The notes under the pieces were generated by a model that saw only the letters and a program-made list of their open reading frames with translations, made no database searches and was not told the origin of the DNA. Shown piece after piece: positions 1,478 through 16,105 of a stretch of 64,000 nt of DNA. Both the position numbers and the translations under genes were made by a program. Source of the DNA: Acidobacteriota bacterium (GTDB lineage Bacteria; Acidobacteriota; Blastocatellia; Chloracidobacteriales; JADJPF01); the NCBI GenBank assembly GCA_016213785.1, contig JACQZQ010000119.1:1-64000 (forward strand). Direction: 5' to 3'. Numbering within the stretch: position 1 is the first letter of the stretch; the number at the start of each line of letters is the position of its first letter.

Positions 1478-1601
1478 ACTTCGATTTGGCCTAATGAAGG
1501 TACGATTTCATGCACATCAACTTGCAGGGCGAGTACATTACAAAATATTAAAGTTTAAGGACTTTAATAAGGTAGGTAAATATAGATAAGAGAGATAAAT
1601 T

Positions 1602-2174
1602 ATGTCTAATCAATCTACTAACCTTAAATGGATAAATTCGAGTGGCGGGCCTTTAGTTTTAATACCAAAACATTTAAGCTATTTTTGGATGGGTTATTAT
1701 TTCAACTTGAATGACAGTTTAGTTAGTCCCTTTGAAATAACATCTGAGGAGCTAACAAATTTACATTTAGCAACTTCAAAGACAGATTATGATAGAGCTT
1801 GTGAAATTGAAGAGTACCTCGCTCCTATTAGAGTTGATAGTGGCATAGGCTTAGTTATAACAGGTGAAATTTGTCCTACAAGTTGGTGGCAAGAAGAATT
1901 TGGTGGAATGTTAGTCCGCATAAATTATGCAAGTGATGCTAACAAAATGCCAAACTACTTAACTAATCTACCTGATAGTATTTGGGAAAAAGAAAATTTT
2001 TGCTTTGATTTACAGGACGACCACTTGTTGTTATTTGATTCTGTAGAATATGGGAAAGATATTAGTGATTTACTTGAGATAACCTTACAACCAAGTAATT
2101 ACCAGATTTTTACAGCTAATTATTCTCCTAATAGTGAAACAGCTTTAATCATCCATAAGTTTACTAAAGCTTAA
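1602..2174 (+). CDS. Imm21-like immunity protein
   Basis: A 190-residue soluble protein. Its N-terminus (LKWINSSGGPLVLIPKHL) followed by W-x-G resembles the opening of Imm21-family immunity proteins, and the later TDYDRACEIEEYL segment fits the same family as I remember it. Imm21 members are encoded beside polymorphic toxin tips and are thought to neutralise them. It lies 124 bp after the preceding gene on the same strand, so it may be an orphan immunity gene kept from an earlier toxin cassette or a second protector. The family call is from memory of the motif and needs a profile search. Confidence 0.6.
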   Translation: MSNQSTNLKWINSSGGPLVLIPKHLSYFWMGYYFNLNDSLVSPFEITSEELTNLHLATSKTDYDRACEIEEYLAPIRVDSGIGLVITGEICPTSWWQEEFGGMLVRINYASDANKMPNYLTNLPDSIWEKENFCFDLQDDHLLLFDSVEYGKDISDLLEITLQPSNYQIFTANYSPNSETALIIHKFTKA

Positions 2175-2369
2175 TAACAAATAAAGTTTTTACAAATTAG
2201 TAGGTAAAGTAGCTAGCACTTTAGCTTGGTGTTGCAAAAAGAGAGCTTTAACAAGAGGATAAGGTTTACACCCTTGGCTACAACTATGCTACTCGTTTAG
2301 GACTTGGTAGCTAAGAATTTAGGTCTTACTTAGTTTATATTGTAATAATCTACAAAATATAAAATATCT

Positions 2370-2999
2370 CTAAGTTACGCTTATTTCTTTGCTTTTCTTA
2401 GATTTAGGCATATCTTGATAGGTTCCAAACAAATAATCAATTATTGGTGAAGTGACCCCAAACCAAACAGGGGCATTAGTATGATGGTGAAGCAAATGAT
2501 AAGTCTTTAAGTAACGCATAAACTTAGTCTTAGGCTGTCTACAATGAGCAGTATAATGAACAAATTCATACCATAAATAACCCGTCCAAATACCAATTAA
2601 TATTAAAACAGCTACATGCTGGTTTCCAATAACTAAGCTAAGTGCCCCCCAAATTAATATGCTAATAGGTAAACTAAACCAAACAGGAGCAAAGATTAAG
2701 CTAATTTTCCTAGGGTATTTATGATGTGTCCTATGTGCCCAAGGTAGTAGTGCCCACCATTGACCATGTTCTTCTTGATGAAAAATCCATCTATGCATTA
2801 TATACTCAACAAAACACCAAGTAATTGCACCTAAAGGTAGTGCCCAGCCTAAATGGTGCCAGCCTATCTCTTTACCAGCATTTATTGCTAGAAAAACTAA
2901 AACTGGAGGATAAAAAAAATAAGCTTGAAAATACCATAAATCTTTCCATGTTTTCTTAGTCTCTTTATCCTTTGATTCTCTATCAACTAGTTCTTCCAT
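2370..2999 (-). CDS. Fatty acid hydroxylase / sterol desaturase superfamily membrane protein
   Basis: A 209-residue integral membrane di-iron enzyme of the fatty acid hydroxylase superfamily, resembling Scs7/FA2H-type lipid 2-hydroxylases. The histidine clusters are visible: H69-x4-H74, H89-x2-H92-H93, H148-x3-H152 and H168-x2-H171-H172-H173, set between hydrophobic segments at about 26-42, 50-66, 100-123 and 128-147. In this family the histidines hold two irons that hydroxylate a lipid chain using O2. The start is an ATG with AGGAG seven bases upstream. There is no fused cytochrome b5 domain, so an external electron donor is needed. The exact substrate cannot be read from the sequence. Confidence 0.85.
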   Translation of the reverse strand: MEELVDRESKDKETKKTWKDLWYFQAYFFYPPVLVFLAINAGKEIGWHHLGWALPLGAITWCFVEYIMHRWIFHQEEHGQWWALLPWAHRTHHKYPRKISLIFAPVWFSLPISILIWGALSLVIGNQHVAVLILIGIWTGYLWYEFVHYTAHCRQPKTKFMRYLKTYHLLHHHTNAPVWFGVTSPIIDYLFGTYQDMPKSKKSKEISVT

Positions 3000-3351
3000 T
3001 TAAGGCTCCTAAAGTTTTGTGGTAAGGTGGTTATACCACTTTACTTATAAAAAATCAAAAGATTTTTTATAAACTATATAATTCTAGCCAACTATATATA
3101 TAACCAAGCTTTAGCCCTTGTCCATTCTGCTTTAACATATTAATTTTTTCAACCACATTGCTACCTCCATATATTTTATTAAGCCGTTTGCATAGCTCTA
3201 GTAATGGCAAAAGAAAGCATCTCCCAAGTAGAAGATTCTAAGATTAATTGTTTTTCCCCTTCTACTATCAAGGGGAAAATTTAACTCTAAATAAAAATAG
3301 GCTCTAGTGTAGACTAGAGCCTATAAAAATCACTTATATTTAGTTTTACGA
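3000..3351. other. Intergenic region between two minus-strand genes
   Basis: AT-rich and without a plausible gene. It should carry the promoter of the hydroxylase gene at its left end and the 3' end of the DUF1501/DUF1549 transcript at its right end. Two hairpins are visible: a 10-bp perfect stem at 3252-3279 (TTTTCCCCTT / AAGGGGAAAA) and a 12-bp stem at 3297-3324, annotated separately as a terminator. Confidence 0.6.
3297..3324 (-). terminator. Intrinsic terminator of the DUF1501-DUF1549 operon
   Basis: A perfect 12-bp inverted repeat, ATAGGCTCTAGT / ACTAGAGCCTAT, around a 4-base loop. Read on the minus strand it is followed by a T-rich run (TTTTATTTAG), 28 bases after the stop codon of the 3352-5265 gene. 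This is the normal form and position for a Rho-independent terminator. Confidence 0.75.
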
Positions 3352-5265
3352 TTAATAGTTATAAAGGAAATCTGGTTGGTTAATTAATAGCCATTGTAAA
3401 TCAGCTATAGCTTGTCGGCCTGCTTTTGTATGTTCTTTTAATTTATCTATTTCCACTTTAGAAGGCTGTCTAGAAAGTGTATTAAGATAAAGTGTGACTA
3501 CAGCATCTTCAGGAGAAAGCTTATTTTGTGCTAAATTATTAGCAATTTGGCTAGGTAGACTATTAGGATTTTCAAGTCTATTAATTAATAAACTACTATT
3601 AAATAAGTCTAAGGCTTGAGTAATAGAACTATCATTAAACCTAGGTTGATTATTTCTATCACCACGACCAAAGTTATTTAAGAACCGACCAACAACTATT
3701 GGGTCATCTGCTCCGCTACCACCTAAGACAGGCTCTTCAACCCCTGGCAAAGCTATAGCACTAGTTAGAGGCTGACTTAAGCCTTTAACATAATAGTTAG
3801 CTGGGATTTGTGTACTTGTAGTAATAGCATCTAAAACTTCTTCAGCTTGCAAACGCCTTACTAACTTACGGGCAAATAACCTAGTATATTCTGGCTTCCA
3901 TTCTTTCTCATCATAACTAGAAGATAATGCATAGGTTTTTGAAGAGGCTACTAGTTTTATTAGTTTACGTAGGTCATAACCACTTTCTACAAACCATGTG
4001 GCTAGATTATTAAGTAAAACTGGATGAGAAGGTTGTAGTGTCCAAGGCGCAGGAGGTGGATTTTTAGGATCAAGCCTAGCTAAATCAAAACCATTAAGAG
4101 GTTCTACTAGTCCTAAAGTAAAAAATCTTGCAAAAACGCGATTAACAAAAGCTTTTGCAAACTGTGGATCACTAGTAAGCATTCTTGCTAGAGCTTGGCG
4201 GCGTTCTTCATTGGCTTGGATTTCGCTATTTCCAAATAAAGCATAAGAAGGTGCAATTATACCTCCGCTACGTGGTGGCCTCATCCCTTTAGAAGTATTA
4301 GCGTTATATTCTTGCTGCTTAAAGTTAGTAATTGTGCCTCTACTAAACCCTACTTGTGCAAAAAAAGAAGACATAGCCCAAAAATCGCTACGTTTTTTTG
4401 TAGAAAAATAAAGGTTTACAGCTTCTAAATGCCCTTCACCATTATGACAAGAAATACAAGTTGATTGAGTACCAAGAAAAATACTAGATGTTTGTCCAGC
4501 CATATCATCAAAAGCATCTTGGGAAACTTCTGCAAATATAACATTATGTAAAATAAGGCTAGAAGGTACTCTTTGGTAATCACCTACAGCAGTAATAAGC
4601 TCTTTAGCAATTTGGTCATAAGGTTTATTACTGGCTATAGCAGTTTGCAAATATTTATGTTGGGCATCTCGTTCAAATGGAGAGCGAGAATTTAGAGCAA
4701 AATTACTAGTTAAATCTCCAAACCATAATGACCAAAAATCAATATAAGCTTGAGAGGCTATTAATTCATCAATTAGTTTTTCTTTTTTCTCTGGAGTTTT
4801 ATCATCGATATATTGCAAAAGCCTTTGTGGACTAGGCTGACGGCCTGTAATATCTAGAAAAACTCTACGACAAAATTCTTCATCGCTTGCCTCTTCAGCA
4901 GCTTTAACATTACGAGATGCTAAAGTACCAAAAATTTCTTTATCAATAAGATTACTAAAAGATTCTGCTGATTGTGTAGAGATTTTATTAATTTTATTTC
5001 GGTTACTAGTTAAAGGTAATTTTGAGGCTAAAGCTTTAGTATTTTGTTCAACTTGTCCAACATATTGATCAAGATCTATTAAGCTTTCGTGAGGATTTTT
5101 CTCTTTACGCTTCTTTATTTGCTCTTCTCTAGCTTGAAGAAATTCCTGTGGAATCTCTTCAGTTTCTTTAGTTTTTATTAAAGGGTTTTGAGCAGCTTTT
5201 TGTACAGACGGAATATTGCAAAATATTACTATTAAAATAAAAGACCATAAAACAAAGCGTTTCAT
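3352..5265 (-). CDS. DUF1549/DUF1553 secreted protein with a CxxCH motif
   Basis: A 637-residue exported protein of the DUF1549-DUF1553 type, abundant in Planctomycetes, Verrucomicrobia and Acidobacteria. It has an N-terminal hydrophobic signal segment (about 4-18), a basic coiled stretch (40-60), the DUF1549 domain (about 105-300) and the DUF1553 domain in the C-terminal half. A single C270-I-S-C273-H274 lies in DUF1549 and could bind one c-type heme. Biochemical function is largely uncharacterised; the family is linked to degradation of complex polymers. AGGAGG precedes the ATG. It is the second gene of an operon, 12 bp after the DUF1501 gene, its usual partner. Confidence 0.88.
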   Translation of the reverse strand: MKRFVLWSFILIVIFCNIPSVQKAAQNPLIKTKETEEIPQEFLQAREEQIKKRKEKNPHESLIDLDQYVGQVEQNTKALASKLPLTSNRNKINKISTQSAESFSNLIDKEIFGTLASRNVKAAEEASDEEFCRRVFLDITGRQPSPQRLLQYIDDKTPEKKEKLIDELIASQAYIDFWSLWFGDLTSNFALNSRSPFERDAQHKYLQTAIASNKPYDQIAKELITAVGDYQRVPSSLILHNVIFAEVSQDAFDDMAGQTSSIFLGTQSTCISCHNGEGHLEAVNLYFSTKKRSDFWAMSSFFAQVGFSRGTITNFKQQEYNANTSKGMRPPRSGGIIAPSYALFGNSEIQANEERRQALARMLTSDPQFAKAFVNRVFARFFTLGLVEPLNGFDLARLDPKNPPPAPWTLQPSHPVLLNNLATWFVESGYDLRKLIKLVASSKTYALSSSYDEKEWKPEYTRLFARKLVRRLQAEEVLDAITTSTQIPANYYVKGLSQPLTSAIALPGVEEPVLGGSGADDPIVVGRFLNNFGRGDRNNQPRFNDSSITQALDLFNSSLLINRLENPNSLPSQIANNLAQNKLSPEDAVVTLYLNTLSRQPSKVEIDKLKEHTKAGRQAIADLQWLLINQPDFLYNY

Positions 5266-5277
5266 TAAGTTATCCTC

Positions 5278-6663
5278 CTAAAACAAAGCTGAGATCTCAT
5301 AGCTATTTTCATCGCCAATAGCCTCAGGATCAACATATCGAAATGGTCGCCCTGAAGGTGTGTTATTTAAGGTTTTAGTCCAGTCAATGCCTAGAGCAGA
5401 AAACATTGTTGTAACAACATCTGACATATGAACTGCACGATTATAACTCCAACCAAAATCTACTACCGCAGCACCAAGTTCGTCTGTTGAACCAATAACA
5501 CGCCCTCCTTTTACACCTCCACCTAAAAACATAGCTGAAAATGCGTAAGGATAATGATCACGGCCTTTACTACGATTAAGAGGGCCTACGGTACGACCAA
5601 ACTCACCAACTACAACTATTAAGGTTTCATCTAGTAAAGTCTTTCCAGGAGTTTCGCCTGGGCTAGTGGTTAAATCATCAATAAAAGCAGAAAGAGCCGT
5701 ATCTAGTTCTTTACACTTAAGTTCTAAGAAATTACTAGAATAAATATTACTATGGTGATCCCAGTTAAAATGGTTTACTTCAATAAAACGAGTGCCTCGA
5801 TTAGCCTTAAATAAATTTCTAGCAATAGCCAAAGAGCCAGCTAAATCATTAGATCCATAGGTTTCAAAATCCGTTTTAGAAGCTATAAAAGTCGTTTTGC
5901 TAATAGGGTCTTTAAGTAACTTTTCAGCTTGTTGTTGAATTGTAGAAATAGGTTGCTGAGAGGTTTCTGTTTCTACTCCATCAAGAAGCTTAAAAGTATT
6001 ACGTCTTCTTTCAAAAGCAGTTAAACCATCTTTAGGAAGAAGATTTGCAATTCCTGAAATAGTATCATTTAGTCTAAATGGGGCTGTTTCGACAGGTAGA
6101 AAACCATTATTAGTTACAAAAAAAGTAAAAGGATTAAAGGTTACAAAACTAGGAAAAATGTCTGTACTAGAACGAGTTGTGGCTTTTTCTAATGCAGTAA
6201 CAGCACCTATATGAGGAATTTCTAGTCTTAGACCAGGGTTTAAGCGTCGGCCTGTTTCTAGAAAATATTGGGCACGTTCATGTACTACTTCTACATGCTG
6301 TAATGAGCGAACAAGCGAAAACTTATCTGCTTTTTCTGCAAGTTTTGGCATTAACCCAACAGGCCAAAGAAAACCTGTTGGTAATTTAGTGGGTTTTAGT
6401 TTTTTTGGTGTCCATTTGCCTACTTTTAAGTCAAAAGTATCAACATGGCTTGCTCCGCCACGTAAAATTACTAGCAAACAATTTTTAGCTGTACCTCTAG
6501 GAGTAACGCTTGTTTCAGAAGCTTTTACTCTAGTAAGTAAAGGTAGGCTTTCATCATCAAGCCACCCCAGCATCATAGCACCTAAGCCTAAGCCTAAAGT
6601 TCCTTTTAGGAAAGCCCGTCGTGTCTTTAGCAAAGAACCATCAGCAAAAGATTCTTTTCTCAT
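5278..6663 (-). CDS. DUF1501 family protein, Tat-exported
   Basis: A 461-residue DUF1501 protein, a family related to the alkaline phosphatase/sulfatase superfamily. The N-terminus carries a twin-arginine signal (KTRRAFLKG, residues 14-22) followed by a glycine-rich hydrophobic stretch, so it should be folded before export. An ILRGGASHVDTFDLK segment near residue 70 matches the characteristic metal-site region, and GEFGRT and GRDHYP motifs typical of the family occur in the C-terminal half. GAGG lies before the ATG. It is the first gene of the operon with the DUF1549/DUF1553 gene. The substrate is unknown. Confidence 0.9.
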   Translation of the reverse strand: MRKESFADGSLLKTRRAFLKGTLGLGLGAMMLGWLDDESLPLLTRVKASETSVTPRGTAKNCLLVILRGGASHVDTFDLKVGKWTPKKLKPTKLPTGFLWPVGLMPKLAEKADKFSLVRSLQHVEVVHERAQYFLETGRRLNPGLRLEIPHIGAVTALEKATTRSSTDIFPSFVTFNPFTFFVTNNGFLPVETAPFRLNDTISGIANLLPKDGLTAFERRRNTFKLLDGVETETSQQPISTIQQQAEKLLKDPISKTTFIASKTDFETYGSNDLAGSLAIARNLFKANRGTRFIEVNHFNWDHHSNIYSSNFLELKCKELDTALSAFIDDLTTSPGETPGKTLLDETLIVVVGEFGRTVGPLNRSKGRDHYPYAFSAMFLGGGVKGGRVIGSTDELGAAVVDFGWSYNRAVHMSDVVTTMFSALGIDWTKTLNNTPSGRPFRYVDPEAIGDENSYEISALF

Positions 6664-8602: not shown

Positions 8603-11017
8603 ATGAATCAATTAGCATTACTTATCCCAGAAAATAGTTCATTAAAAAAATACTCAAAATCTATTCGTGTTTTAGGTATAGATTTAGGAACAACTAATTC
8701 TGCTGTGGCAGAAATAGTTTGGGAAAATAATGAGCATAGCCCAATAAATATTCAGTGTTTAGAAGTTGCCCAACATACTCCTGATGGGGAATATTCTCAT
8801 GTTTTAGTGCCTTCAATACTAGCACTTTATGAAGGGCAAGTTATTATAGGAGAAGGAGCTAAACGCCTTCGCTCTAGAGCATCAGAGCTAAATCTTAAAC
8901 CTAACCAAAATCTTTTTTATGAATGTAAAAACGATATAGGAATAATGAGAACCTATCATATGGCACCAGAAAATTTCCGCTCTGCTGCTGAAATAGGAGG
9001 GCATTTACTAGAGTTCTTACACCAGTCTGCTGTAGATAAAGACGACACACCAGCTAGTCGCGTAGTTGTCACTGTTCCAGCATCATTTCAAGCCGCTCAG
9101 CGCCATGATACATTAAAAGCTGCCGAACTTGCCCAGTTACACTTAACAGGTGGCGACCTTTTAGATGAACCTATTGCAGCTTTTATTGATTATTTAATTA
9201 CTTATAGAGAAACTTTTATTAAAGAATCTACTGAACCAAAAAGCTTAATTGTCTTTGACTTTGGTGGAGGAACTTGTGATGTTGCAATTTTTCGCCTGCA
9301 AATGCCTAATCGTAGCCGTAGGTTAAAAATTTCACCGTTAGCAGTCTCTCGTTATCACAGATTAGGTGGTGGTGATATTGATGCAGCAATTGTTTATGAT
9401 GTGCTTATCCCCCAATTAATAAAGGAAAACGAGCTATCAAATTTTGACTTAAGTTTTGAAGATAAGAAAAAATTTCTTGAACCCCCAATGTTAGGTATTG
9501 CCGAAGCCTTAAAAGTCGGGTTATGTACAGAAATCTTACAATTACAAAAATTTGGTAAATATGACTCTGCAAATAAATCACAAATCCTTAAACAACAACC
9601 TGGAACATTTTCTTATAAAATAAAAAATCGAACCCTAAATTTACAAGCTCCTAAGCTTACTGCTCTACAGTTTGAAGAAATCCTTAAACCTTTTCTAGAC
9701 CCAGATCTAGTATTTGCTCGTGAAACAGAATATCGTATGACTTGCTCAATTTTTGCGCCTCTTCAAGATGCTCTTGATCGTAGTGGTCTTACGACTAAGC
9801 AAATAGACTATTGTTTGCTTGTAGGTGGTAGTAGCCTTATTCCTCAAGTTGTTCAGGCTGTAGGAAAATATTTTCCAAAAGCAAAGCTTATGACTTATTC
9901 TGATCGTAACTTAGTACAAACTGCTATTGCTCGTGGAGCAGCCTACCATGCTTTAGTCTTAGCACTTTATGGAAAAGGAATGGTACAGCCTGTTTGTCAT
10001 GATGCAATATCTATTAGGGCTGAATCTGGATTACTAGAACTTATCCCTAAAGGTGCTGATTTACCTTATCCTTCTGATGGTTCTTATGCAAAATGTTTTT
10101 CTTTAGCTGTACCAGAAACAACAAATTATTCTGTAGATTTAAGAGTAGAAATAGTTGGAGGAGATGAAGAAAGAAAGCTCTTTAGTCAAATTTGGCAAAT
10201 ATCTGGCCCAGTAAGAAAAGGTGATAAGCTTTGTTTAGAATATCGCTATGATGAAAATCAAGTTCTAGACTTAAAAATGCGACTTGCTGATGCCGATGAT
10301 TTAGAAGAACCTTTTGTTGCAAAAATAGAAAATCCTCTAACAAATGTAGTAAATCCACAAAGCAGAAGACTAAAAATCGATGAAATAGAGGAAGATCTTA
10401 GGAATAAAAAATATCCTGCTTATCGTGTCCCAGATAAATTAGTTGAACTAGCTGAAAATTATGTAGAGCTTGGTCAAAGAGAAAAAGCTATTGATTACTT
10501 AAAAAAAGCCCTGCAAGGTAAAAATGGCGTAGATGCTAGTATTTTGAATAAATTAGGCATTTATTTTGGTGAAATAGGTGATTATGATAGAGAGGAAAAA
10601 TTTTATAAAGAAGCCGCTGGTGCTTCTCCTTCTTGGAGTACTCCTTGGTTTAACCTAGCCCTTGCACAAAAGAAACGTAAACGCTATTCAGAAGCTATTG
10701 AATCTTTAGAAAAAGCTTTTTCTATTAGACGCGAAGGGCCTTATTTAATCCTAGCTGCTCAAGTTGCTGATGCTTGTCATAAAACTATTGATAGGGATAG
10801 GTACTTAAAAGAAGCTTTTGAGGCTTTTGGCTCTGTCTCATCGCTTGATGATTGGGAGTTAGGTTGGATTTTAGCAGGTGCAAGGCTTGGTGGAAAAAAT
10901 GACCTTATAGAACAAATACAACTTGAACAAAAGCGACGCAAAGACCGCCGAGAACTAGTAATAGAAAGAGGAGTATTACCAATTATTACTCCAGGAATGC
11001 AAAAGGTTTCTGAATGA
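8603..11017 (+). CDS. Hsp70 (DnaK-like) ATPase fused to a C-terminal TPR domain
   Basis: An 804-residue protein with an Hsp70/actin-type ATPase domain: phosphate-1 loop GIDLGTTNS (25-33), VTVPASFQAAQR (157-168), phosphate-2 loop DFGGGTCD (219-226) and adenosine loop LLVGGSSLIP (about 403-412). The region after about 440 is not a normal DnaK substrate lid. Residues about 605-725 form tetratricopeptide repeats (VELGQREKAIDYLKKALQ, KFYKEAAGASPSWSTPWFNLA). Ordinary DnaK is about 640 residues, without TPRs and next to dnaJ/grpE, so this is a specialised paralogue. It overlaps the next gene by ATGA, which implies translational coupling with the UvrD-like protein and a joint role. No known function can be assigned. 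Confidence 0.88.
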   Translation: MNQLALLIPENSSLKKYSKSIRVLGIDLGTTNSAVAEIVWENNEHSPINIQCLEVAQHTPDGEYSHVLVPSILALYEGQVIIGEGAKRLRSRASELNLKPNQNLFYECKNDIGIMRTYHMAPENFRSAAEIGGHLLEFLHQSAVDKDDTPASRVVVTVPASFQAAQRHDTLKAAELAQLHLTGGDLLDEPIAAFIDYLITYRETFIKESTEPKSLIVFDFGGGTCDVAIFRLQMPNRSRRLKISPLAVSRYHRLGGGDIDAAIVYDVLIPQLIKENELSNFDLSFEDKKKFLEPPMLGIAEALKVGLCTEILQLQKFGKYDSANKSQILKQQPGTFSYKIKNRTLNLQAPKLTALQFEEILKPFLDPDLVFARETEYRMTCSIFAPLQDALDRSGLTTKQIDYCLLVGGSSLIPQVVQAVGKYFPKAKLMTYSDRNLVQTAIARGAAYHALVLALYGKGMVQPVCHDAISIRAESGLLELIPKGADLPYPSDGSYAKCFSLAVPETTNYSVDLRVEIVGGDEERKLFSQIWQISGPVRKGDKLCLEYRYDENQVLDLKMRLADADDLEEPFVAKIENPLTNVVNPQSRRLKIDEIEEDLRNKKYPAYRVPDKLVELAENYVELGQREKAIDYLKKALQGKNGVDASILNKLGIYFGEIGDYDREEKFYKEAAGASPSWSTPWFNLALAQKKRKRYSEAIESLEKAFSIRREGPYLILAAQVADACHKTIDRDRYLKEAFEAFGSVSSLDDWELGWILAGARLGGKNDLIEQIQLEQKRRKDRRELVIERGVLPIITPGMQKVSE

Positions 11018-12327
11018 AGACATTGCTAGCATCTAAATCCGAGCTTACTCCTGCACAAGCAAGAGTAATAGAAATGAGCGCAACAGAAAATCGAGTAATT
11101 TTTGGGGTTGTTGGAACAGGTAAAACCCAGTTACTACTACACCGTGCTCGCTATCTTTCTGATAGTCTAAAAGTCCCTTCTAATCGCTATCATATTTTTG
11201 TACATAATAATGTACTTAAGACTTATTTACGTTCATCTTTAGCGCTATTAAATATTCCTGAAACCGCATTATCTACTTTTAATTCTTGGTGCTTGAATTT
11301 TTATCGCTACCATATAAATACCCTACTTCCAGAAAACCATGATAAAACCCCTCAATTTGATTTAATCCGCAAAGGTATTTTAGGCAAAATCAAGTTTTCT
11401 GATAACTCTTCTTTTTTTGATAATATTTTTCACTCTATGTTAAATATAGTACGGTCTAATACTATCACTATGCCTATTTATGATTTTGTCTTAGTAGATG
11501 ATGGTCAAGAGTTAGATAGTATTTCAATAGATATTATTAGTACTATTGCTAGACACGTTACAATAGTTGCAGATGATAAACATAAAATTAATACTTCAGG
11601 CTTAAGTAGTACAGAGTTATTAATTAAACTTAAACAACGCTATTCACTGCACTTAAATGGAGCTTTTCGTTCTTCGCCTTTTATTATTAATTTGGCAGCA
11701 CAGTTTATTGATGATCTAGAACTTCGCAAAAACTATCTTTTTGAAGCTAAAACCCCTGAAGGAGAAAAAGAAACCCCTGTTCTTTATTATGCTGCTAATG
11801 CTCTAGATGAAAAAAATAAATTAATTGAAGTAATGCGTAACCGTTTAATTAAAGGAGAAAATGTTGCAGTACTGCTCTTTAATGATAATCAGGTCAATGA
11901 GTTTGCTGAAGCACTAAAAGATCCTAGGCTAGAAGTTAAGAAAATTCTTTCATCTCCTCGTAGTGATGGTAGTCTAAACAAATTAGACTTTAGTAATGAT
12001 TGTCCTAAACTAATTACTTTCCAAAATGCCCAAGGGCTTACTTTTGATACAGTAATAATCCCTCAATTAATAAACAATGGACATTTTAAGACTCTAGCTG
12101 TTGATCAGGTACAAAAAATATTATTCTCTGCTATTACTAGAGCAACTAAGTGGGTTTTCTTAAGTACACATAATGCTGATTCATTACCATTACTTAGCAA
12201 AATCACTCCATTAAAAGAACAGGGAATGTTAAATATTCAAACTTTTGTTCCTCGCAGAATGGTAAAAAAATTTACTGTACCAACCCATATTCCCGCAGAA
12301 ACAGACGACCTAATAGATATTCTCTAA
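11014..12327 (+). CDS. Divergent UvrD/Rep-like superfamily 1 ATPase
   Basis: A 437-residue protein, short for UvrD/Rep (about 650-750 residues). Motifs seen are a Q-motif (LTPAQARVIEM, 11-21), Walker A GVVGTGKT (31-38), motif II VDDGQE (161-166), motif III region VADDKHKI (185-192), motif IV GAFRSSPFI (216-224), motif V NAQGLTFDTVIIP and motif VI SAITRATKW. In motif II the usual DE is DD, and motif III has lost its usual glutamine. The large 1B/2B inserts are also missing, so helicase activity may be reduced and it could be an ATP-driven switch. Its ATG lies inside the stop of the Hsp70-TPR gene. Confidence 0.8.
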   Translation: MKTLLASKSELTPAQARVIEMSATENRVIFGVVGTGKTQLLLHRARYLSDSLKVPSNRYHIFVHNNVLKTYLRSSLALLNIPETALSTFNSWCLNFYRYHINTLLPENHDKTPQFDLIRKGILGKIKFSDNSSFFDNIFHSMLNIVRSNTITMPIYDFVLVDDGQELDSISIDIISTIARHVTIVADDKHKINTSGLSSTELLIKLKQRYSLHLNGAFRSSPFIINLAAQFIDDLELRKNYLFEAKTPEGEKETPVLYYAANALDEKNKLIEVMRNRLIKGENVAVLLFNDNQVNEFAEALKDPRLEVKKILSSPRSDGSLNKLDFSNDCPKLITFQNAQGLTFDTVIIPQLINNGHFKTLAVDQVQKILFSAITRATKWVFLSTHNADSLPLLSKITPLKEQGMLNIQTFVPRRMVKKFTVPTHIPAETDDLIDIL

Positions 12328-13487: not shown

Positions 13488-16105
13488 TGATACACAAAAA
13501 ACTTACAGATAATAAAACAGATAACAAACTAGAACAAACACTTAATTCTATACGAAGAGAAAAACTTGATTCTGATGTAGTTGATGCTGCTGCTCAAAGA
13601 GTTTGGGCAAAACTAGCAGAATCTCAAGAAAGCGCTCCTCTAATTGAAATCGATCAAATTCGCACTTGTGCAGATTTTCAAAGTTTAATTTCTACTTATT
13701 TAAGTGGAAAATTAACAACTGCCCGTACAATTCTTTTTGAAGATCATACTCGTGAGTGTTTACTCTGTCGTAAAGCATTAAAAGAAGCCCGTAATGGTCG
13801 AGTAGCTAAAGTTAGTCAAGTAGCACAAATTAACACTACTCGTTCAACTTTTACTAAATGGCTAATTGCTGCGGCTGCTATTTTAGCTTTAACTTTAATT
13901 TCTTGGCCGATTATTGAACGCTTTTCTCCTTATGGAAGTAGTGTTTATGCAAGCGTAAATGTGGTCGAAGGGGCTGTTTATCGTGTTGCTGATGATAATA
14001 GCAATATGCTTAAAGCAGGAACAAAATTAAAAGAAGAAGAAAAAATTAGAACAGCTAAAGATGCAGGCGCAGTAGTTACACTTAGCGATGGCTCATTGAT
14101 TGAAATGAAAGAGCGCTCTGAATTTTACTTAACAGAAACCGGTAAAGGAATTAATATTCACCTAGAGCGAGGAAATATCATAGTCCAAGCAAATAAACAA
14201 AATTCTCGTAAATTATTTGTTACCACAAGCGATTGTTTAGTTTCTGTTGATGGGACTATTTTTTCTGTTAATAGTGGAATTAAAGGCTCTCGTGTTTCTG
14301 TTATTGATGGAAATGTCCAAGTAGATTATGCAGGTCAAGGAAAAAATCTACAAGCAGGTGAACAACTTAGCACTAATCCAAGTCTTGGTGTAGTAGCAAT
14401 TAAAGATGAAATCTCTTGGAGCCGTGATGCAGCCAAATACTCTAAATTACTTGCTGCCCTCTCTTCAGTACGTAAAGAAATTGAAAGAGTGCCTGTTGCT
14501 GGAGTTCGCTATACAACTGAACTTTTAGATATTGTTCCTGCTCAAACAGTTTTTTACAGCGCATTACCTAATTTTAGTGCTTCTCTAGAACAATCTTATG
14601 CAATTTTGCAACAACACTTATCTAAAAACCCTGCTCTACAAGAATGGTGGAACAAAGCACATAATGATGATTATGAGCAAATGATTAAGAAAATTATCGA
14701 GCTAGGAAGTTACTTAGGTAGCGAAATAGTCATTTCCTCAGAAATGAAAAAGAATGGAGAGCCTGATAGCCCAGTAATTATTTCAAAAACCAAAGATCTC
14801 AATGGGCTGATTAATCTTTTTAGTAATCAAAAAGATATTTTCAAAGGCTTAACATTAGTTTTAGTAGATAGCCCAGTTCATTTAAGTGAACCAGCAGCTA
14901 AAGACACTATCTATGTTTGGGTAAATGGAGATTTATTTGCTGCTAGCTTAAATCCTGAACCATTAAAGCGATTAGCTGAAAATATAGAGTCTGGTCAAAA
15001 AGCTTTTATGAGTAGCATTTTTTATGCTCGTATTGCCCAAGTCTATCAAGAAGGTGCTGGTGTAATTTTAGCTGCTGATTTAGAAAAAATTATTCCTGCA
15101 ACAATTAAACCTGGTAATGATAAGCAGTTAGCCGCTTATGAAAAATTAGGACTAACCAGCTTAAAACATTTTATTGCCGAGCAAAAACAAGTCTCAGGAA
15201 AAACACAAAATCGTGCTGTTTTAAGCTTTAACCAAACCAATACAGGTATTACTTCTTGGGTAGCTGATCCTGGCCCAATCGGAGCATTAGAATTTGTCTC
15301 CCCAGATGCAAATGTTGTAACAGGTTTTGTAATTAAAGATCCCGCTTCATTAATGAGACAGCTTTTAGAAAGTATTAGTAGTCTTGATGAACCGCTTGCA
15401 CAAAACTTAATAGGCGTTCAAAAGACCTATAACTTAGATATTGTTAATGACTTTGCTGCACCTTTAGGCGGAGAGTTTGTAAGCGCTATTGATGGGCCTG
15501 TTATACCAACACCTGCTTGGAAAGTGATTTTTGAGGTTTATGATTCTGCTAAACTACAATCTAGTTTAGAGAAACTAACCTTAGAAGTAAATCGTATGCT
15601 TGGCTTAATTGGAAAGAAAGGCTTAGCAATAGAAAAGAGCGAGTTAAATGGTCGTACTTTCTACACTTTAAGATCTTTAGACACTAAATTAGAGTTAAAC
15701 TATACTTTTAGTAATGGCTATTTTGTTGGTGCTGCTAGTCGTGCTTTAGTTGACCAAGCCTTACGTTATAGAGACTCTGGTTATACTCTAACTCGTTCTG
15801 CTGGCTTTATAGCGCTACTCCCAGAAGATACTAATGCTAATTTCTCAGGTCTTTTCTACTATAACTTAGCATCTGTAGTTGCTCCAATAGCCGATCAAAT
15901 AGGAAAACTAGAAGGTCAAGAAAGTAAAGCACTACAATCTTTAGTTTCAAGTAAACCAACTCTAGTTTCTGCTTATGCTCAAGGCGATAGAATAACTTTC
16001 TTAGCTAATGGTGATTTAGGCCCATTTAGCTTATCACCTGCTAATCTATTAGGATTACCTAATGCAATGAATATTCAAAAAATGGTTAAAGGTAAAACAA
16101 AATAA
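13487..16105 (+). CDS. Membrane anti-sigma factor with zinc finger, FecR domain and large extracytoplasmic region
   Basis: An 872-residue protein. Residues 55-100 form an anti-sigma zinc-binding-type domain with C61 and H87-x3-C91-x2-C94. One membrane helix spans about 123-143 ([17 protein letters not shown]). A FecR-like domain follows (about 155-300, with LSDGSLIEM and [13 protein letters not shown]). The last 550 residues are a repetitive alpha/beta region resembling DUF3352-type sequences (for example [14 protein letters not shown]). The N-terminal part would hold the sigma factor in the cytoplasm and the periplasmic parts would sense an envelope signal. Anti-sigma factors are usually 200-350 residues, so this one is unusually long. 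A strong terminator follows. Confidence 0.85.

Follow-up and report, generated by a model that had tools for sequence, protein, structure and literature searches.

A conserved gene pair encoding an Hsp70-TPR protein and a minimal UvrD-like helicase, a candidate bacterial immune module

The two genes and their products

The pair lies on the forward strand of the window, by which we mean the whole 64-kb stretch of DNA that was analysed, and consists of the gene of an Hsp70-TPR protein (8603..11017, 804 aa; ORF, Pfam, predicted structure and DnaK alignment) followed by the gene of a minimal UvrD-like SF1 helicase core (11014..12327, 437 aa; ORF, Pfam, model and UvrD alignment). The ORFs 8603-11017 and 11014-12327 share an ATGA stop/start overlap (11014..11017), as had been described in the original prediction. 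No nuclease or toxin domain was found in either protein.

Comparison of the first protein with Pfam gave a match to HSP70 at 2.8e-28 and a match to TPR. In its AlphaFold model (pLDDT 85), the nucleotide-binding domain (NBD, residues 20-456, 8660..9970; conserved residues and predicted structure) and the substrate-binding beta domain (SBD-beta, residues 460-576, 9980..10330; predicted structure and a DnaK alignment reaching residue 576) superpose on DnaK over residues 20-576 with a Z of 33-35. The DnaK-type helical lid (SBD-alpha) is absent, and a TPR-type helical array, modelled at about residues 587-782 (10361..10948; Pfam, predicted structure and alignment), occupies its position. The NBD is actin-like and has the phosphate loops and the catalytic Lys/Glu/Thr. 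Residues K109, E189, D219 and T224 and the glycine loops, which were matched to the catalytic residues of DnaK by motif, were unchanged in 18/18 aligned members of the main clade; K109, E189, D219, G221-T224 and D226 were invariant across this clade wherever the residue was covered, and D27 and T30-N32 were invariant in the 16/16 members covering them. Pfam, residue conservation and the AlphaFold model thus agree with the earlier description of an Hsp70 with intact nucleotide loops and a TPR domain at the position of the lid. Asn649 and Asn684 are conserved and spaced one TPR repeat apart. A canonical carboxylate clamp was considered for the TPR and rejected, since the next repeat lacks the conserved basic pair expected from the clamp pattern of HOP.

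The helicase matched both the N- and the C-terminal domains of UvrD in Pfam. Its AlphaFold model (pLDDT 83) superposed on UvrD through residues 7-412, with 373 of the 645 UvrD residues aligned; the protein is about 270 residues shorter than UvrD, within the predicted shortfall of 200-300 residues, and the full 1B and 2B subdomains are absent. The 1A/2A core and motifs I, IV, V and VI are present, including Walker A (residues 31-38, GVVGTGKT, 11104..11127; alignment), so that the predicted retention of Walker A and motifs IV-VI holds, with the qualification that the Lys of motif V is replaced by Gln in the helicases of the window genus. Motif II (residues 161-166, VDDGQE, 11494..11511) and motif III (residues 187-192, DDKHKI, 11572..11589), both located by alignment, differ from the DE and D-x-x-Q types found elsewhere in the family. 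These departures had been predicted and are real in the window, but they do not extend to the module: the D-E of motif II and the Gln of motif III are absent from the helicases of the window and of the same-genus genome G001 only, are present in all other helicases covering the sites, and the SF1 motifs are intact in nearly all helicases of the family. Judged from the alignment, the DD motif II and the lost motif III Gln are a lineage-specific trait of the window genus and not of the family.

The branch of the window helicase was 2.2 times that of its Hsp70, which was the highest such ratio of all, and comparison with the copy of G001 gave a dN/dS of 0.12, similar to that of the neighbouring genes. 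A pseudogene was ruled out by this value, and the long branch together with the low dN/dS indicates a helicase that is altered but functional. On these sequence comparisons, the helicase of the window genus is kept by purifying selection despite the loss of the Walker B Glu and the motif III Gln; given this combination, the motor probably serves as a binder that is weak or ATP-locked.

The final 22 residues of the helicase are disordered in the AlphaFold model, and this tail closes with a conserved C-terminal tip (ETDDLIDIL, 12298..12324; model and alignment). Throughout the family, the variable tail of the helicases terminates in a hydrophobic tip that in most cases is preceded by acidic residues (DDLIDIL, DDLLGLL, DDLDFL, DDFSVL, EEISLF, DDELFF and IDDLF). 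The last two residues were hydrophobic in 19/22 helicases as against 8/196 background proteins, with the reservation that the helicases are related and the counts not independent. A conserved hydrophobic tip of this kind suggests docking, since docking peptides behave in this way; the obvious candidate site would be on the partner, in its TPR or SBD-beta.

Pairing, co-inheritance and distribution

A search for the helicase in 396 genomes of the phylum to which the window belongs, judging from its relatives, returned 9 positives, and a profile search for the Hsp70 in the same genomes returned 8, all of them within the nine. Both genes were therefore found together in 8/396 genomes (Fisher p about 6e-16), and the ninth helicase-positive genome (G143) has an assembly gap at the locus. 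In a scan of named genomes, the helicase directly followed the Hsp70 in 14/18 family-like loci having room downstream and in 0/74 generic Hsp70 loci. This pairing is far beyond chance; homologues of the two genes are usually adjacent, and among the 396 genomes the Hsp70-TPR gene is rare and restricted to genomes that also have the helicase, and is not a common housekeeping paralogue. A four-base overlap (ATGA or GTGA) was present in 15/22 pairs, a count that includes L068, where the ORF call begins further upstream, and was found across phyla, so that conservation of the overlap in distant genomes is established.

The results of the phylogenetic comparison showed the same main groups in the helicase and Hsp70 protein trees. 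The mirror-tree distance correlation was 0.96 overall and 0.70 when the Bacteroidota outgroup was removed, and 0/5000 permutations reached either value. The agreement of the two trees indicates that the Hsp70-TPR and the helicase were co-inherited, with horizontal transfer, to which the scattering of the Acidobacteriota rows among other phyla also points. Family Hsp70s without a helicase were found in L030, L052, L056, L058 and L062; the first of these (1486-3864) is a second Hsp70-TPR of genome G017 and adjoins the gene of a WYL-domain regulator. The helicase of genome G008 is truncated to 110 aa (L028, 9506-9838) and that of the other G017 locus is split (L029, 974-1723, with L031), a transposase gene lying at the contig end; the Hsp70 frame is open in both.

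The distribution of the pair is patchy (9/396 and 1/301 genomes) and spans at least eight bacterial phyla, a spread that could be inflated by misbinned MAG contigs. The profile scan of named genomes placed family Hsp70s in Hydrogenedentota, Neomarinimicrobiota, Bdellovibrionota, Acidobacteriota, Chloroflexota, Armatimonadota, Pseudomonadota, Bacteroidota and others. Plasmid-borne distant relatives in Antarctobacter, flanked on both sides by IS elements, and in Persicobacter, with a WYL gene upstream, keep the gene order Hsp70, AAA/UvrD-like ATPase and third gene, which is also that of Prevotella and Bacteroides. The Bacteroidota-type third gene (12796-14364 in L060, 3290-4453 in L061 and 13531-14898 in L063) was matched by neither Pfam nor NCBIfam. 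The third genes of different lineages are unrelated, the plasmid relatives (L175 and L176) carrying unrelated proteins at that place. Phages gave no match for the window helicase and a single weak one for the Bacteroidota-type helicase, and only one viral contig, of 6.9 kb, carried a close Hsp70; a phage-borne origin of the pair was rejected on the absence of phage matches to the window helicase and on this lone contig. In E. coli, nothing matched the one Antarctobacter Hsp70 gene that was searched by DNA similarity.

Genomic surroundings of the pair

The window belongs to a 6.4-Mb genome with a GC content of about 34%. The pair is located there among ordinary genes, with a GAF/histidine kinase, an ECF sigma factor and a FecR-type protein as neighbours; neither dnaJ nor grpE adjoins it, in agreement with the original prediction, and no defence genes were evident when the ORF translations of the 64-kb window were read. 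The same downstream genes are kept in G001, in stable synteny with the window pair. Elsewhere in the window, positions 83-928 hold the C-terminal part of a protein of the RHS/YD-repeat type whose tail is variable. Two small unassigned ORFs come next (1028-1477 and 1602-2174), an arrangement seen in polymorphic toxin loci. On the minus strand (3352-6663), a DUF1501 protein adjoins a 637-aa DUF1549/DUF1553-like protein, a pairing that is usual in Planctomycetota. Genome G000 has at least 8 further Hsp70-like matches on several contigs (L002-L008), including a tandem pair on C39.

Strong defence genes were present within 8 kb of the pair at 6/16 loci, while 10/16 had no strong PADLOC match nearby. 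Genes in these surroundings were called mechanically. In L042, the pair is followed by a DrmD-type protein (3e-283) and then by a DpdE-type protein (2e-184), SNF2 proteins of the DISARM and Dpd kinds. The neighbours in L029 are a type IIG enzyme and HKD-Snf2. L047 and L068 have the order type IIG methylase, AAA ATPase, pair and NERD-UvrD, to which L068 adds SNF2. L055 contains a complete Hachiman (HamA 7e-53, HamB E=0), and L040 an HNH endonuclease, DUF4007, a type IIG enzyme and GmrSD. Comparison with generic Hsp70 loci, whose 104 neighbouring proteins yielded a single weak defence match, showed a significant enrichment at the level of genes (at least 11/92 pair neighbours vs 1/104 control neighbours, p about 0.001). 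At the level of loci, the difference between 6/16 pair loci and 1/11 controls, which are mostly flavobacterial and mutually non-independent, was not significant (p 0.11). The proposed enrichment near defence genes therefore stands for genes but not for loci, and the window copy itself is outside a defence island. L042 also encodes, between DrmD and DpdE, a 504-aa protein (14006-15520) with a PADLOC match to PDC-M61B, a match also seen in the Hsp70; it is possibly a second Hsp70 or actin-like ATPase.

Possible function and comparison with known systems

We propose that the two proteins form a co-translated ATPase module that moves horizontally and is most likely directed against phages or other mobile DNA, a reading to which we assign a probability of roughly 0.55; the pair probably represents an immune module that has not been described before. 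Defence, DNA repair and conjugation control had been held equally open by the original prediction, and the genomic context tips this balance towards defence. A more specific model is offered tentatively, as something that could well be wrong: the TPR-lid Hsp70 would sense infection and gate the minimal SF1 motor through the C-terminal tip of the latter, and the interchangeable third protein of Bacteroidota and of the Antarctobacter and Persicobacter plasmids would be a possible effector or adaptor. In the proposed module, the Hsp70-TPR would be an ATP-switched scaffold to which the helicase is bound by its flexible tail and its tip, seated in the TPR groove or the SBD-beta cleft, and would either keep the motor inactive or load it. 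On infection, free DNA ends, single-stranded DNA or titration of the chaperone by a phage protein could act as the trigger, upon which the small motor would be freed onto nucleic acid and would block it, unwind it or pass it to a nuclease. If the function is defence, the pair would be an immune module in which a DNA motor is coupled to the complete core of an Hsp70 chaperone, and would make it possible to test directly whether infection can be sensed through chaperone occupancy. The DD variant under purifying selection would offer a naturally occurring SF1 motor in which binding is separated from hydrolysis.

The defence genes around the pair could also mean that it is an accessory of the neighbouring R-M, DISARM-like or Hachiman systems and no independent system, since it directly precedes DrmD in L042 and lies within one gene run with the methylase, the AAA ATPase and NERD-UvrD in L068 and L047. 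However, the partner systems vary from locus to locus and such a partner is missing from many loci, among them the window, which makes this explanation improbable. A non-immune role in DNA repair or replication stress, in which the Hsp70-TPR would remodel or load a PcrA/UvrD-like motor at stalled forks, is unlikely, though with a real chance of being correct. Hsp70s remodel DNA-bound complexes, the closest fold of the helicase is that of UvrD/PcrA, and, within its genus, the window copy shows stable vertical inheritance and purifying selection, whereas a sparse spread across phyla and surroundings of defence genes or of IS elements and plasmids are untypical of core repair genes.

Both the structural and the family matches of the helicase include HelD, and the small SF1 core could accordingly be imagined to act on RNA polymerase as a HelD-like transcription factor, with the Hsp70 as its assembly chaperone. 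This is very improbable: the long N-terminal arm of HelD has no counterpart, the alignment beginning at residue 185 of HelD and residue 7 of the window helicase, and UvrD scores higher than HelD. The helicases that are truncated in G008 and interrupted in G017 beside open Hsp70 frames, and the family Hsp70s without a helicase, would suit an Hsp70-TPR that acts alone and a helicase that is a frequent but dispensable passenger; against this, the overlapping start, the congruent trees and the helicase dN/dS leave little room for a mere passenger, and we give this explanation hardly any credence.

The comparison of the pair with known systems agrees with a conserved, undescribed chaperone-helicase pair, as had been supposed. 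Neither protein was named specifically in PADLOC, NCBIfam or Pfam, which gave generic Hsp70/TPR and UvrD matches only; no system in the libraries searched matched the pair, and the open-access literature searched contained no description of it, although papers elsewhere could hold one. The Hsp70-TPR shares its NBD, catalytic residues and SBD-beta with DnaK but has a TPR array for the helical lid, no DnaJ or GrpE nearby and a helicase as partner. The helicase family shares the 1A and 2A core and, in most members, motifs I-VI with the SF1A helicases UvrD, PcrA and Rep, and differs from them in its shorter length, its disordered tail with the hydrophobic tip and its adjoining Hsp70. The best PADLOC match of the helicase core was NERD-UvrD (C3a187, 2e-16); the window helicase lacks the NERD nuclease domain, and the NERD-UvrD that follows the pair in L047 and L068 is a separate gene. 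DISARM drmA, drmB and drmC were not evident in the window, and L042 has only the DrmD-type protein within 8 kb.

Gabija resembles the pair in the UvrD-like core of GajB, in being a two-gene unit and in its occurrence among defence genes. It differs in the partner, which is the OLD-type nuclease GajA in Gabija and the Hsp70-TPR here; no GajA-type OLD nuclease was present among the window neighbours. In CoCoNuT types II and III, an SF1 helicase is accompanied in some types by an Hsp70-like protein that carries helical repeats; CnuD has HEAT-like repeats and is predicted to have almost no ATPase activity, and CnuH resembles UPF1 and has additional domains (PMC11090510). McrB and McrC are core to CoCoNuT but absent from the window pair, beside which no McrB-type GTPase or McrC was found, and no McrBC match appeared among the neighbour families shown. 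Although the defining partners of both systems are absent here, GajB on the one hand and CnuD with CnuH on the other may, by analogy, be the nearest parallels to the way in which the pair works.
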